Below, piece after piece: positions 8,755 through 64,000 of a stretch of DNA of 64,000 nt (the first letter of the stretch is position 1; every line of letters begins with the position of its first letter). The translations under genes were made by a program, and so were the position numbers. The notes beneath the pieces were generated by a model that worked only from the letters and a program-made list of their open reading frames with translations, did no database searches and was not told the DNA's origin. The DNA is taken from contig KN832563.1 of NCBI GenBank assembly GCA_000827205.1, positions 940,863-1,004,862 on the forward strand. The letters are read 5' to 3'. This stretch comes from Plicaturopsis crispa FD-325 SS-3 (taxonomy: Eukaryota > Basidiomycota > Agaricomycetes > Amylocorticiales > Amylocorticiaceae).

Positions 8755-10588
8755 ATGGATGTTTCTCCGCACAACTTTCTTGGACTTGATCTCTCCACAC
8801 AACAGCTGAAAGCCATCGTCATCTCCGAACACTCGACCGTACTCCATGAATGTGCAGTGCGATTCGACCGGGACCTCGATGCGTCTGGTTATCATACGCA
8901 CAACGGTGCCGTCCGTGGTCCGGACGGCGAGGTCACATCACCTGTCGCGATGTGGGTTGAGGCCCTAGATCTGCTCATGGCTAGAATGAATGCCGCAGGC
9001 GTTGACTTCACCGCTATCGCTGCCGTATGTGGGGCAGGTCAAGTATGTAATTTTCCTCGTGATTCCCATCGTTCTTTGTTGCTTTATTTTTTTCTTCGTC
9101 CAGCAACACGGATCGGTGTACTGGTCGTCCGCTGCGGACGACTGCCTGGCGTCATTGATGCCGGAAAAAAGTCTATTGCAGCAGCTTTGCCCCTCGGCAT
9201 TTTCGTTACAGAATTCACCCATCTGGGAAGATTCGTCTACCACACGCGAGTGTCGAGAGCTTGAGACTTATGTCGGCGGGCCCCAAGTTCTCGCAGATAT
9301 AACCGGGAGTAGAGCGTATGAGCGCTTCACGGGCCCTCAAATAGCGAGGGTCAGTCAGTGGCTCGATTTTACCCGCCTAGCTCATTCTGATCTTCATTTA
9401 CAGATTCGTCGTAGACACCCCGAAGTATACGAGTCGACCACGCGCATATCCCTGGTGTCTTCTTTCCTTCCTTCCCTTTTCTTGGGACGCATTGCGCCCA
9501 TAGAAGTCTCTGACGCAAGCGGGATGAATCTCATGAATGTACTCACCTGCAAATGGAATGACAATCTATTGGAAGCGTGCGGTGGGCCCAAGCTGCGCTC
9601 AAAGCTGGGTCCAGAGCCTGTCCCTGGAGGGACCGTACTTGGTACGGTGAGTGACTGGTGGGTCAAGCGATGGGGATTCAGCCCGAGTGAGTTTCCTAAG
9701 TTCTACTCAGGGATCGTTTGGTGGCTTGTCTCATAGATGTTGTCACTCATAGACTGCATGGTCGCGCCATTCACTGGCGACAACCCCGCAACAGTCGTCG
9801 CACTGTCTGCCCCAGGAGATGCCATCCTTTCGCTCGGCACTTCAAGCACTTTCCTCCTTTCTATTCCACCGTCGGAGACCCCGCCTAAGCGATTCACCTC
9901 CTCCCACCTCCTTTCCCATCCCACAACCCCCGATGCACAAATTGCGATGCTCTGCTACAAGAACGGTGGCCTGGCTCGCGAGCAGGTACGAGATCGCTAT
10001 GCCGGCCGCGACTGGCAGCGATTTAACAGCCTCATCGACGCGTCCGGTGTGGGCAACGATGGCTACTTCGGATTTTATTTCCCCCTCCCTGAGATTATAC
10101 CGCCCAGTGTACAAGGCGACTTCTTCTTCCGTGTGGATGGACGATCCATCGTCAGCGTTCCGTCGATTCCGGACTCTTCACACCCACGCGCCATCCTCGA
10201 ATCGCAGTTTCTCTCTATCCGCTCCCGCGTCGCAGCCATCCTGCCACCTCATTCTCCTCCGTCGCAGCGGCTCGTTCTCACCGGTGGATCCTCCACCAAC
10301 ACTACCATACAGCAGCTCGCTGCGGATGTCTTCGGGATGCGGACATACGTATCGATAAGTGGCAAGGAGGCGGCAGATACGGGCGGAGCTCTCCTGGCGA
10401 AATTCGCATGGTGGAGGGCGAAACACGGGGGCAAAGGCACGTTCGAGGAAATGACGATGGGCGAGGCCGAGGCGATGAAATGTGTTGCCGTGCCGCAGGA
10501 GTCGAATGTCGCTGTCTACAGCGGGCTCATCGACGTTTACCGAGCTTGCGAGGCGAAGGTGGTGCAAGCTTGCCAGTTGAAGTCATGA
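8755..10588 (+). CDS. XKS1: D-xylulokinase (FGGY carbohydrate kinase)
   Basis: Phosphorylates D-xylulose to D-xylulose 5-phosphate, linking pentose and plant-biomass sugars to the pentose phosphate pathway in the cytosol. Four exons (8755-9042, 9104-9349, 9404-9686, 9753-10588) give about 550 aa, a normal length. The N-terminal lobe starts FLGLDLSTQQLKAIVI, a classic FGGY phosphate-1 motif. AVCGAGQQHGSVYWS is the conserved substrate loop, completed across the first intron. EVSDASGMNLMNV carries the catalytic Asp region. The C-terminal lobe has VAPFTGDNPATVVALSAPGD, LSLGTSSTFLL and LVLTGGSSTNTTIQQLAADV for the adenosine site. The ATG at 8755 is the first in-frame methionine. Confidence 0.93.
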
Positions 10589-11777: not shown

Positions 11778-11786
11778 CAGAGATGC
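11778..11786. repeat. Left target-site duplication of the 854-bp transposon
   Basis: The 9-mer CAGAGATGC lies immediately outside the left terminal inverted repeat. An identical 9-mer abuts the right end at 12641-12649. Confidence 0.75.
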
Positions 11787-11853
11787 CAGATAATTAGAAA
11801 TATTGGGGATATTTCCGAAAGTTTCCGAAAGTTTCGGAAACTCGTGAATAGCC

Positions 11854-12164
11854 CTTAAGGGATATTTCGGCGTTTAAGCGTTAAGGCATCGTTTGGCAAA
11901 TATCCCTTAAGGTGTATCAAGCCGAATATCCCTTAAGTGACGGCCGTTAAGGCATACACTCTCAAATATCTCTTAAGGGATATTCACCACACCGACCCTT
12001 AAGAGATAAATTGCATAAAATTCCTTAAGGGATATTTCGAGAATATCCGAGTCCCTTAAGGGATAAACAACAAGGAATCCCTTAAGAGGTATAAAGCAAA
12101 CTAAGTCTTAAGGGATAAATCCTCGGATATCGCTTAAGGTGTGTTTCTCGAAACATCCCTTAAC
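11854..12164. repeat. Left array of 26-bp-phased CTTAAG palindromes
   Basis: Thirteen cores (CTTAAG or one-base variants) start at 11854, 11880, 11906, 11932; 11946, 11972, 11998, 12024; 12055, 12081, 12107, 12133 and 12159. Within each block the spacing is exactly 26 bp; blocks are offset by 14 and 31 bp. The best units extend to the palindrome ATATCCCTTAAGGGATAT. The core is an AflII site, expected about once in 4 kb, so the density is far above chance. Confidence 0.9.
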
Positions 12165-12220
12165 GGATGCCCGGACGCGCCAAACGGGATATAGTTAAAC
12201 AAAATCAAGAAATTATGTTC

Positions 12221-12323
12221 AGACGTTTGGTGCAGTGGTTGGAATCGGCGACGCTATTATTCCCAGTCGTGTGTAAGGTTAAGAGTGCAAGTTCGACTCT
12301 CGCGAAGTAGTTTTGTTTTTTTT
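12221..12323 (+). ncRNA. tRNA-like RNA polymerase III unit inside the transposon
   Basis: TGGTGCAGTGG at 12228-12238 fits the A-box consensus TRGYNNARNNG exactly, and GTTCGACTC at 12291-12299 fits the B-box consensus GWTCRANNC exactly. A run of eight T (12316-12323) follows as a possible terminator. A short stem GCGAC/GTCGT can form around an enlarged anticodon-like loop. However, the sequences where the acceptor stem should be do not pair, and the A-to-B spacing (63 nt) is longer than in a standard tRNA. It is therefore a tRNA-derived or SINE-like promoter unit, probably not a functional tRNA. Transcription is inference. Confidence 0.5.
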
Positions 12324-12360
12324 CGAGCCTGGCCCTCAAGCTTTACTCGGGGTGCTAGGC

Positions 12361-12573
12361 CTTAAGTGATATTCGAATGTATATCCCTTAAGGGATATTC
12401 GGTCTTGTATGCCTTAAGGACTATTTAACGTTGTAAGCCTTAAGAGATTGATAGTTTTCAACCATATGGGTATTCTTGACGACGAGGTGCCCTGCAAGGT
12501 TTTAATGCTACACGCCATAAGGGCTAAAACACGAATAATGTCTTAAGGGATATTTACCAGGATAACCCTTAAG
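12361..12573. repeat. Right array of 26-bp-phased CTTAAG palindromes
   Basis: Cores start at 12361, 12387, 12413, 12439 and then at 12516 (variant CATAAG), 12542, 12568, each exactly 26 bp from its neighbour within a block. The distance from the last core to the right terminal repeat (6 bp) mirrors that from the left terminal repeat to the first core, so the element is symmetrical. Confidence 0.88.
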
Positions 12574-12640
12574 GGATGTTCACGAGTTTCCGAAACTTTC
12601 GGAAAGTTTCCGAAATATCCCCAGTATTCCCATCGCTCTC

Positions 12641-12649
12641 CAGAGATGC
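12641..12649. repeat. Right target-site duplication of the 854-bp transposon
   Basis: CAGAGATGC is identical to 11778-11786 and directly abuts the right terminal inverted repeat. Confidence 0.75.
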
Positions 12650-12843: not shown

Positions 12844-15644
12844 ATGTCTCTCGGTGAGTGATCTTGTGGTCGCACAGGACTGTACCGGGGTCTCCTCTAG
12901 CAAGGCATAGCCCTCGGTATGCCTGTCTATTCCATCACCGAAATGCTGAGCGAACGTGCTTTTGCTTTCTAGCAGAACCGCCCTCCTTGCTGACTTCGAG
13001 CCCAACTTCACCCGCACTCTCTCTGTCCGTAATGTCTGCTACGACCAACGCTTTCAGCACGAGCGCACCCTCATCCTCCGCCAGCCCACCACCACCACCG
13101 CCCTCCTTGACCGAATCGCGATCCTCAGCACACCAAGATGACATGGATGTCGACCAACAAATCCTCGAAGCACTCAGGAGCAAAGATAGACTCTACGTGC
13201 TCAAGCTCGGCGAGCAGATGGAAGGTCTCATAAATGACCGCAGGTGCGTGTTCATACCGACGTGCCGTTGCGAATGGCCGCCCCCTTCGCTGGCGTGACC
13301 ATCAGCCGTGTGTTGACGTACTCACAGACCGCGCATCGATTTGACGCCCGCGACATCGTACCAACGCCTTCTCGTCCATCGGTGCTCGGCCTACTACAAA
13401 CTCTCACCCGAGAGCGATCCCGCGACAAAAATCATATCCGTCTCCTTCACAATGGAGAGTAAAATGTTCGTACACACATTAGTCATCCGCCTTGCATCTC
13501 ACGACTCATGATGCACCCGCAGCCCCGTCCGCCGGCTGTCCGACCTGGTGCCAGCAGAGTCGACCGCGCAGCCAGCGTTCAAAATCATGCGTCGCGCGCC
13601 ACGGAAGCCGCGGTCGCAGGCAGACTCGGTAGTGGGCGAGGACGGTGAGTTTTCCGACATAGAACCGTCCGAGGCAGGAAGCGTGGGCGGGCGCAGCAAC
13701 GCTACGGGTAGCAGTAAGAAGCACATGACCCTCGAAGAGCGGGAGGCGGCCTACAACGAGGCACGCTCGCGGATATTCATGAATTTCGAGGAGAAGGAGA
13801 AGGAGAAGGAAAAGGACATGAGCGCGAGCTCGTCGACTTTTAGTCTCATCTCGGGGTCTGCCTCGACGAGCGGTGGGGGTGGGGGTAGCAGTGTCGGTGA
13901 CCTGGACGATTCTGTGAGCTCTCCTGCAACTGAGAGCGAGTGGTCCGGGCCAATCACAAGAGACAAGAAGGAACCGAGGCGGGGCGGTTCAGGCAACTCG
14001 AATTCTGCTTCCTCGCAACGGTCTCTGCGTTCCACTGCGCCTTCCTTCAATACCAATAGTGGTTCTAGTAGCTCCCGGGATTCACGAGCGTCCTCCCCAT
14101 CGTTCCAATATCCTTCCCTCTACGAACCATCTCCGCCGACTTCGTACGATCCCTCGCCTGTTCAGGGTCAACCTCCCAACCCGGGTACGGGCTATATGGC
14201 ACCATACGTGTACCACTATCCTCCTCAGGGCCAAGTACCTCCACCTCCGGGCTACGCATACCCTTACTACCCCCCTTACCAGTACCATCCGCCCCCACAA
14301 AATCCTTCGTCCGACCCCAACAGTCCCACTGGCGGCGATTTATACTCCCACCTTCACCAACAACACGTGCAGTCTGTGCAATACATGAGCCCGTACGCGT
14401 GGGTACCGCCCTTGGGCTTGCAACATCCACAACCATCTGTACATCCGCAGCATCCAGGATCAAATCACAGTAGTCCGCCTCCTCATCAGCAACTTCCGCC
14501 CCAATATCAACAGCCTTACATGCCGCCTTACGCTCCTTACCCCATGGCAGGATATTATCAACCGCCACCGCCACCTCCTGGCCAGCTACATCATCCTCCG
14601 CAGCAAATGCCTCCGCCACATATTCCCGGCCAGGTGTATCCCGGAAACGAAGTGCTACGCATGCCAAACGGGAGAAACGGTGCACACCACCTAAGTGGTA
14701 CAAACTCACCCGCACGGTCACGGACCACGTCATCGAGCCCCGGTGGTGCCAATAAGCGCAACGTGCCCCCGAATGCACGGTCGGCGTGGAGCTTCGGCCC
14801 TGGCGTTGGCGCGAGCGGGTATGCGGGCTCCTTGAGCCTGGGCGGAGGTGAGACTGTAGGCCCGCGGCTGAGCGCGAGCATGCGGAGGACTTCAGGAGCG
14901 TCAAGCACGGGGAGTGGGAGTGCGGGAAACAGGACGCCCGCAGGTGACGAGGCATCCTCTACCGCAGTGAGTCAGCACGCCGCTTGCACTGTCTTTTGAC
15001 TCGTTGCGCCGTCTCTGACATCTTTGCTCGATATACAGTCGTCGTCAACCACGTCGTCGTCTTCGCGGCGGACGTACACGTCAGCGGCCTCGTCGCAGCA
15101 GCACCCGCTTCCTCCACGCCCAGACTGGGCTGTAGGACTCAAGCCGGAGCCTACGCTGCACGCCATACGGCACCATGACACCACTGCGACGGATTTCCCG
15201 CCCCTCACGTCGGCGTCCTCCGACAAACGCGCGGCTATGTCCTCGGAGAAGCGCAGTGCGCCGGCGAACAGCTCGCCCGTTGCGAGCGGCGCGTGGGGAA
15301 ACGCGTCGTCGACGCGGTCCATACTCATGCCGCCTGCAAACTCGTATAGCAGTGCTGTCGTGCACCATCCGCCGGCTTTAGCCAACGGGAATGGCGGCCC
15401 CGCTCGGGCGGAGGATGCGGAGCGGGAGCGCAATTTCGAGCGACCACAGGCGAAGCCGAACACTGAGCTGTGGACGCCACGGCGCAACGGGCGGACTCCC
15501 GAGAAGGAGCGCGGGGAGAGGGAGAAGGAACGCACGCGCGGGGAATCCGTGGCCGGCGCGATACTCGCTGAGAAGGTTGCAGCGATGTCGGTTGAGGACC
15601 AGACTGTGGCGGCGGCGGAGAACGCCGCCGCTGTGCCTACATGA
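12844..15644 (+). CDS. R3H and SUZ domain RNA-binding protein
   Basis: Probably binds single-stranded nucleic acid or mRNA through R3H and SUZ modules, like ENC1/R3HDM/ARPP21 relatives. Five exons (12844-12853, 12973-13243, 13328-13465, 13523-14966, 15039-15644) give 822 aa in one frame. The R3H region spans about residues 55-135: RSKDRLYVLKLGEQMEGLIN, then PRIDLTPATSYQRLLVHRCS. A SUZ-like block follows with FKIMRRAPRKPR and MTLEEREAAYNEARSRIFMN, then a Glu/Lys run. The rest is disordered: a Pro/Tyr/Gln-rich stretch (about residues 320-470) and a Ser-rich, charged C-terminus containing ATDFPPLTS. The short first exon and the donor GTTCGT at 13466 are the only choices I found that keep frame. 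A transposon ends about 200 bp upstream. Confidence 0.85.
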
Positions 15645-62796: not shown

Positions 62797-64000
62797 TCAC
62801 ACGGCCTCGTCGCGACCAAGACTCGACACACCGGCGACGTTGTCTCCGGGGTGTTTCCGCCGCACATAGGCCGGCGCCTGCGGGTCCAATCGTCCCTGCT
62901 CCTCCGCTACAGACACAGCCAGTGAGCCACGCGTCGGTCAAAAGGGATAGGGGACGTACGTGTCGCAGACCAAAAGTATATTATAAGCCCGATGATGACG
63001 ACGACGAACGAGGGGAAGTACAGCCAGAAGGGGGAGTAATGGAATAAGAATAGGCCTGGATATCGCGATCTCGTCATTAACACAACGCCCGGGGGAACGA
63101 TGCAGGGAGACGCTTACCGAATAAGAGGCCGTAGAAGTCGCTGGTGAGGAGGCTGATGTTGTAGTACGCGGAGGAGGCCGTGCGATAGATGAGGGGAGCA
63201 ACGGTGTATAGAATGAACATGGCTAGGAGATCGCGGAAGAGACGTCAGTCGGCGGGTAATCAGCGAGGTTGCATGGACATACCAGCCGTGTATGCAATGA
63301 TCAATCCAACTGGCACCGCAAGAAACATGTCAAACAGTGTAATCATAGCGGAGGAGGTGGAAGCGTAACGTACTCGTTGCACCGTTCCAAACAACCTGCG
63401 TCATTACGACGTGTTCGAGTCCGGCGGCTTGGATGCCATTGATAAGTGTGCCCCACATGCCCATTTGGCCGACGACCTATAGATTGCAAGGGGATACGAA
63501 TAAGCGACATACTTCAATGGACGGGAGACGCTGTAGGCTCACCTCGTAGAGGGGCCGTTTCCGCACGAAAAATTCTTCCGTTGCATTTGCTAGAGAAGTT
63601 TGTAATTAGTTTAGAGATGCAGTTGCCACCTGCTTGCTTAGGGGAATTTTTGATTGCGAGAGATACGCACTAAAGCCGTAGAGCGTAGCGCCCAATATCA
63701 TGAAGCCATCACCCATGCCTTTATTGAGCGCAGGGTAGTTTTTGTCGGTTAACATGTCCGAGGACACGAGCATCCCGAGACCACCGATGCATACAAGCAC
63801 GCCCTGCGGATAACAGTCAACGGCTGCAAGCGCCCAATCCAGGACGGGATGCTCACTAGGATCTGCGTCCAGTGATATTTGGGACGCATGTATACCCAAG
63901 AGAAGAACAGGCACACCGGGATCGCCCAGGCGTCAAGTAACATACACGAAAGTAGATCCGTATATTGATACGCCTGTGGAAGTGTCAAGAGTGTCAGTCC
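62797..64000 (-). CDS. SLC35F1/F2-type solute transporter (DMT superfamily), 5' part beyond window
   Basis: Multi-pass membrane protein of the drug/metabolite transporter superfamily, SLC35F (DUF914) branch; transported substrate uncertain. The gene runs off the right edge, so the start and first helices are missing. Visible exons from 64000 downward: LPQAYQYTDLLSCMLLDAWA IPVCLFFSWVYMRPKYHWTQ IL, VLVCIGGLGMLVSSDMLT, MGDGFMILGATLYGFS, NATEEFFVRKRPLYEVVGQM GMWGTLINGIQAAGLEHVVM, LIIAYTAAMFILYTVAPLIY RTASSAYYNISLLTSDFYGL, and a final helix LYFPSFVVVIIGLIIYF. The order and the TSDFY motif fit human SLC35F1. The cytosolic tail ends YVRRKHPGDNVAGVSSLGRD EAV at 62797. At least five introns. Confidence 0.85.

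Follow-up and report, generated by a model that had tools for sequence, protein, structure and literature searches.

The row of 26-bp-spaced palindromes in the 64-kb stretch of DNA analysed here (the window; C10:940863-1004862 of a 33.2-Mb assembly with 49 contigs) is part of a transposable element with terminal inverted repeats (TIRs), and elements of three families, A, B and C, occur in the same genome. They have a common terminal signature and target-site duplications; A and C carry phased palindromes, the left array of B holds decayed counterparts in register with those of A, and in all three families a unit resembling an RNA polymerase III (Pol III) type-2 promoter lies at the centre in one orientation. 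We think it rather probable that these are non-autonomous TIR DNA transposons whose arrays would load a multimeric transposase and whose central Pol III unit would be maintained by selection. An earlier note on this DNA had already placed the array in a mobile element, to which the TIRs, a target duplication and further genomic copies now attest; it contained neither the target duplications nor the central unit.

Three families of elements with inverted termini

The window copy of family A is whole, measures 854 bp and spans positions 11787..12640 on the plus strand, as delimited by an alignment of the four A copies with their flanks. Its CAGA end lies on the left and its GAGA end on the right: it starts at 11787 with CAGATAATTAG..., finishes at 12640 with ...CATCGCTCTC and is bracketed by the 9-bp target-site duplication CAGAGATGC (11778..11786 and 12641..12649). 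The left terminal region (11787..11865, plus strand) holds GGGGATATT, tandem palindromes of the 10-bp TTTCCGAAAG type (11812-11840) and the first box of the left array. Its counterpart is the right terminal region (12562..12640, minus strand), in which 12562-12628 forms the inverted partner of 11799-11865 with a match of 91%. On either side of the centre, arrays of palindromic boxes take up the greater part of the DNA as far as the termini. No open reading frame (ORF) of at least 110 aa lies wholly within the window copy, nor does it have a stop-free frame of at least 100 aa. The element is flanked by an ORF with an FGGY_C carbohydrate-kinase domain (window positions 9737-10585) and by a SUZ-domain ORF (13548-14996), upstream of which it lies.

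Family A comprises four copies, namely the window copy and three more in the same genome, family B eleven diverged copies, including one probable assembly duplicate, and family C two diverged copies. Family B was reached through terminal matches and family C through 24-bp-spaced CTTAAG pairs at C3:2358132-2358758. The terminal signature common to all three, SAGA-N10-TAYN-GGGGATATT (CAGA or GAGA tip), is present at 31 of the 34 ends of these 17 copies, the other three ends being at assembly gaps or lost. When up to one mismatch is allowed, the signature has 32 matches in the whole assembly, 31 of which are the ends of the 17 copies, compared with two matches for a backward control.

Target duplications of 8 or 9 bp were identified for 13 of the 14 assessable copies: ten are perfect 8-bp duplications, two are 8-bp duplications with one mismatch, and that of the window copy is 9 bp long. 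Two other A copies have the 8-bp duplications GTCGAATG and TACTTGCC, and in the flanks of the remaining one, A_C7, no target duplication was found. Two B copies (B_C27 and B_C7) were left out of these counts owing to gaps. A third, B_C12a, enters only the copy total and the terminal-signature count, being a probable duplicate; it has the same 12-bp left flank as B_C12b, with a run of N alongside. These two tandem B copies (C12:785087-787236), with their identical left flanks and the run of N close by, are probably an assembly duplicate.

The elements are MITE-like in that inverted termini occur in dispersed copies, the target duplication is of fixed length and no transposase gene was seen within them. 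Among the 16 copies scanned, eight contain stop-free frames of at least 100 aa (15 frames in total), and a Pfam search of seven of these 15 frames returned no transposase; below the cut-off it gave a DEAD helicase (E 0.019) and DUF4605 (E 0.087). The weak DEAD-box helicase match lies in one stop-free frame of a ~1.2 kb insert in the B copy at C3:227204-229360, and this frame is perhaps a captured gene fragment. Two A copies (C1:1300896-1302027 and C10:554492-555820) carry different nested inverted-repeat inserts in the same CCTTAAGTG box, with junctions that by eye resemble TA target duplications. The B copy at C1:2409963-2412735 is, again by eye, broken twice, once in its TIR by a ~1.1 kb insertion with inverted ends of its own.

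Searches of the assembly with element DNA and with the terminal signature turned up no gene-bearing element that has these ends, which suggests that the mover is absent from the assembly or has diverged ends. Allowing up to two mismatches, the signature has 82 matches versus 29 for the backward control, and 50 of the 82 have exactly two mismatches; the closest convergent pair among those 50, judged by eye, is ~24 kb apart (C1:2541211 and C1:2565225). Reading the sequence around the lone signature matches at C1:230657 and C6:517429 revealed no element. Two further lone matches, one at C6:892824, next to a hAT match, and the other at C2:1883783, fall in what looks to be coding sequence.

The central Pol III-like unit

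In the layout of a Pol III type-2 promoter, an A box (TRGYNNARNNG) is followed by a B box and then by a T-run. The centres of all three families follow this order, with TRGYNNARNNG, then GTTCGA 25-75 bp further on, then a T-run, on the strand that runs from the CAGA end to the GAGA end. In the window copy, the unit consists of the A-box-like TGGTGCAGTGG (12228..12238), which fits the consensus, the B-box-like core GTTCGA (12291..12296) and the T-run TTTTGTTTTTTTT (12311..12323), a candidate Pol III terminator, all on the plus strand. All 15 copies in which the A box can be read (a gap hides that of B_C14) retain its consensus, and GTTCGA is retained in 16 of 16. On the opposite strand, an A-box/GTTCGA pair occurs in none of the 17 rows (one of which repeats B_C12b). 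Among 2000 shuffles each, the A box and GTTCGA appeared in order 15 times for the window copy, nine times for B_C4 and three times for C_C3, and followed by T4 five times, twice and not at all. Because the layout was spotted before testing, these figures and those on box conservation are somewhat optimistic.

Independently of what the arrays do, the two boxes could be a product of chance or the decayed, functionless remnant of a tRNA gene or SINE, and we regard this as a real possibility, if on the doubtful side. In keeping with it, the unit is not recognised as a tRNA and has no stable fold: it gave no Rfam tRNA match, no match with ARAGORN at default settings and no cloverleaf, and its folding is no better than that of shuffles (z +1.56). 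When the ARAGORN thresholds were lowered to 60-70%, 'tRNAs' appeared all across the element, which we discarded as noise. The centre is also more variable than the arrays in A (22/156 variable columns vs 23/568) and in B (68/230 vs 82/551), and hardly different from them in C (25/182 vs 60/558). Furthermore, an insertion parts the two boxes in C_C20. Against a remnant stand the same strand and place of the unit in three diverged families, and the boxes themselves, which are kept in all readable copies despite variable surroundings: only 4/60 box columns vary, compared with 50/222 around them (pooled p=0.005), a difference that reaches significance in the pooled data and in B (p=0.03) but in neither A (p=1.0) nor C (p=0.07) alone.

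Under the reading that we favour, the unit would act as a Pol III transcription unit or a TFIIIC binding site, and it would be kept for a benefit to the element, for example by holding it open in chromatin. A Pol III promoter kept in a cut-and-paste element would then be an unusual ingredient, which could shield the element against silencing or set its place within the nucleus. Among the open-licence PMC papers listed, none was seen to describe a TIR element that has a Pol III unit inside it, although this does not prove that there is none. SINEs, for their part, are retrotransposed and have no TIRs. Pol III-type boxes in a short non-coding mobile element are also present in AfuSINE2, a fungal tRNA-related SINE with target duplications of 4-14 bp according to the available portion of its description (PMC5063351); in contrast to AfuSINE2, the unit described here lies mid-element between TIRs, with duplications of 8-9 bp. 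Outside the element, both strands of the window together contain one A-box/GTTCGA pair, at 63346 (+).

Phased palindrome arrays

The left array of the window copy (11853..12165) consists of 13 boxes with the consensus ~ATATCCCTTAAGGGATAT, whose 8-mers start at 11853, 11879, 11905, 11931, 11945, 11971, 11997, 12023, 12054, 12080, 12106, 12132 and 12158. The seven boxes of the right array (12360..12574) start at 12360, 12386, 12412, 12438, 12515, 12541 and 12567. Exact CTTAAG occurs 20 times in the 64-kb window, 16 of them within 11854-12573 (shuffles of the window contain 9.6 on average, and 20 was reached in 1/100). Together with four one-mismatch boxes (11880 GTTAAG, 11946 GTTAAG, 12159 CTTAAC and 12516 CATAAG), these make up the roughly 20 palindromes in two arrays that the earlier note had counted. 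Its statement that the steps are 26 bp without deviation is likewise exact for all five blocks. With boxes defined by up to two mismatches to CCTTAAGG, the window copy has 16 pairs at a lag of 26 bp, whereas shuffles average 0.04 and 0/300 dinucleotide shuffles attain this number.

The number of CTTAAG pairs alone is unremarkable genome-wide (68 per strand vs 56 for the backward pattern GAATTC), and the spacing alone stands out: among the plus-strand pairs listed (50 of 68), 31 are exactly 26 bp apart, and 30 of these 31 lie in the four A copies. The 26-bp period that the earlier note had proposed to test across copies emerged from a motif-free palindrome autocorrelation in A, was replaced by 24 bp in C, and was not found in B, where B_C4 has four pairs at 27 bp (0/200 shuffles).

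Between blocks, the joints are 14 bp (11932 to 11946), 31 bp (12024 to 12055), 202 bp and 77 bp. The 31-bp joint is confined to the window copy; A_C1 and A_C10b have 25 bp instead, as does A_C7 when measured from a mutated box. Since steps of 14, 25 and, as the commonest step of C, 24 bp are also found, helical phase as such is unsupported, which weakens the earlier argument that 26 bp, or about 2.5 helical turns, would place neighbouring sites on opposite faces of the DNA.

When the 20 units are compared in a 26-bp frame, unit-to-unit identity is 85% in the 8-bp core, a value somewhat inflated because the units were chosen by their core, 52% in the adjoining 5+5 bp and 28% in the other 8 bp, with 26% expected at random. 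On the sequence evidence, the site is an extended palindrome, ~ATATCCCTTAAGGGATAT. Half of the family A box, GGGATAT, recurs in the termini as GGGGATATT.

The geometry of the arrays is similar across families. The first box starts 67 bp from the tip at both ends of A, 65 and 66 bp in C, and 66 and 56 bp in B, so that the distance is ~66 bp at five of the six family ends. The boxes of C are GCTTAAGC, with 24 bp as the commonest step, and five lag-24 pairs in C_C3 and three in C_C20 were each matched by 0/300 shuffles. For B, the consensus has three lag-26 pairs (0/300 shuffles), detected only with the motif CCTNNAGG given. All four left boxes of B sit on the A register with an offset of one base, a fit reached by 2/20,000 random placements with free offset, and the spacers of A and B can no longer be aligned. 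A common register points to a spacing that has been inherited and maintained.

Conservation of the boxes differs by family. In C, with boxes taken from either copy, 4/136 box positions are substituted compared with 56/410 spacer positions (p=2e-4; one box present only in C_C20 was left out of this projection), and a separate alignment that includes this box and gaps gives 9/145 vs 74/437 changed columns (p=9e-4), which demonstrates box conservation at the level of the two aligned copies. In A, core and spacer columns do not differ significantly over the four copies (4/168 vs 19/400, p=0.25), and box conservation is suggested by the unit comparison. In B, it appears to be absent or relaxed: the boxes look decayed and are no better conserved than the spacers (12/96 vs 70/456, p=0.53), and when every A-register slot of the left array is considered, they are more variable (18/88 vs 18/183, p=0.02). 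The proposal of conserved cores amid drifting spacers is borne out between units and between the C copies, but not among the copies of A or of B; these two families show the similar decay of cores and spacers that had been named as speaking against a phased site array, and C does not.

We propose that each palindrome would bind a dimer of a transposase acting in trans, and that a row of sites that begins ~66 bp from the tip and has a spacing of ~24-26 bp would load several such dimers. The loaded dimers could bring the ends together before cleavage, with a stagger of 8-9 bp yielding the duplication. Apart from helical phase, the earlier idea of a phased array of dimer sites agrees with the behaviour of core and spacing, the identity centred on the palindrome, the A/B register and the separate palindrome of C. 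A precedent is Hermes, for which the accessible part of PMC10368747 describes a transposase multimer that reads several subterminal motifs, including a palindromic pair, with strict phasing. In the same text, additional transposases deeper in the ends are judged unlikely to aid transposition, and the loading of many dimers along a row therefore has no direct precedent in Hermes.

Alternatively, the elements might make use of a host factor, for example a protein of transcription, chromatin or replication, that binds the boxes in place of a transposase. We consider this unlikely, although the box cores of C are kept with no transposase carrying these ends found in the assembly, and although arrays that fill most of the element between termini and centre would suit it. 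Families A and C have different boxes, CCTTAAGG and GCTTAAGC respectively, at similar tip distance and spacing, as expected from diverging transposases and not from one host factor, and the half-site of A resembles the tips. A point against our own reading is that the C box lacks the terminal GGGATATT, which shows that one motif does not simply serve as both box and tip.

Less plausible still, and in our estimate improbable, is a foldback structure in which the palindromes would form a long hairpin or dsRNA and no protein would read the sequence itself. The fold of a single strand of the element is indeed much more stable than the folds of shuffles (-171.7 kcal/mol, z -12.5, 0/20 shuffles folding as well); however, such folding is expected from TIRs and from any palindrome array, and a foldback needs neither an exact 26-bp phase nor one defined conserved core.

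A passive remnant of a captured 26-bp satellite, the fallback of the earlier note, would agree with the exact 26-bp steps, with a 26-bp unit that A_C7 and A_C1 have and the window copy is missing, as unit exchange would give, and with the A and B copies, which by themselves show no better-kept cores than spacers, but it is very improbable, as the units are not alike over their full length, identity being concentrated in the palindrome with uneven decay across the unit, similarity outside the core is no higher for adjacent units than for remote ones (0.406 vs 0.414), the register is common to A and B, and C has a palindrome array of its own with conserved boxes.

Transposase loading by phased sites remains our preferred explanation of the arrays. 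In eukaryotic transposons, irregularity is common among subterminal repeats and obscures the number and geometry of loaded transposase subunits; three families with palindrome rows, one of which keeps its boxes as the spacers drift, would be a natural system in which to test how multimers load and whether box and transposase co-evolve. Much more tentatively, the elements may represent a transposon lineage that combines a working, selected and TFIIIC-bound Pol III unit with phased rows of family-specific dimer sites. Within such a lineage, the box sequence would change by family, while the distance from tip to array and the direction of the Pol III unit would stay and the spacing would remain similar.

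Candidate superfamilies

Three superfamilies, hAT, MULE and Zisupton/Dileera, each fit the elements in part. Ends of the CAG type occur in hAT transposons, and one end here starts with CAGA. Like the hAT elements Hermes, Tol2 and Ac, the elements have an 8-bp duplication (9 bp in the window copy) and many subterminal motifs. The AAGG in the boxes of A and the AAGC halves in those of C are also reminiscent of the AAGT/AAGC bound by the BED fingers of Hermes, where a quasi-palindromic motif pair is bound cooperatively with strict phasing, as stated in the portion of PMC10368747 at hand. Unlike Hermes, in which only two motif pairs are palindromic according to that portion, the window copy contains regular rows of ~20 full palindromes. 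In addition, GGGGATATT is located 18 bp in from the tip, the second end is GAGA, and no hAT gene bearing such ends turned up in the assembly. None of the 13 hAT-domain matches in the genome is close to a terminal-signature end, and near one of them, the single hAT locus that was read, a weak end-like match falls in a coding region.

Among Mutator-like elements, Muta1 of Aedes has 8- or 9-bp duplications, TIRs with subterminal tandem repeats, a palindromic terminal motif and small non-autonomous derivatives with differing middles, as given in the available sections of PMC5225508. The elements resemble MULEs in their 8-9-bp duplications, in TIRs with subterminal repeats and in their small non-autonomous forms. 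They differ in that their TIRs are ~65-80 bp long and their palindromes 26 bp apart, in contrast to Mutator-like TIRs, which these sections describe as usually >100 bp, with repeats of 9-15 bp in tight rows (PMC5225508). Two weak MULE-domain matches were detected in the genome, on C13 and C5, and no signature end was found on those contigs.

Zisupton/Dileera (KDZ) elements of fungi have 8-bp duplications, as far as the accessible text of PMC12730594 goes, and are similar to our elements in this respect. For the one KDZ locus that was read (L091), whose element ends are not fixed, neither a comparable TIR nor any inverted repeat longer than 25 nt was listed. The genome contains 43 KDZ-domain matches, which suggest that the host is a basidiomycete fungus. 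One of them, at C27:66687, is ~5 kb away from the B copy at C27:72043.
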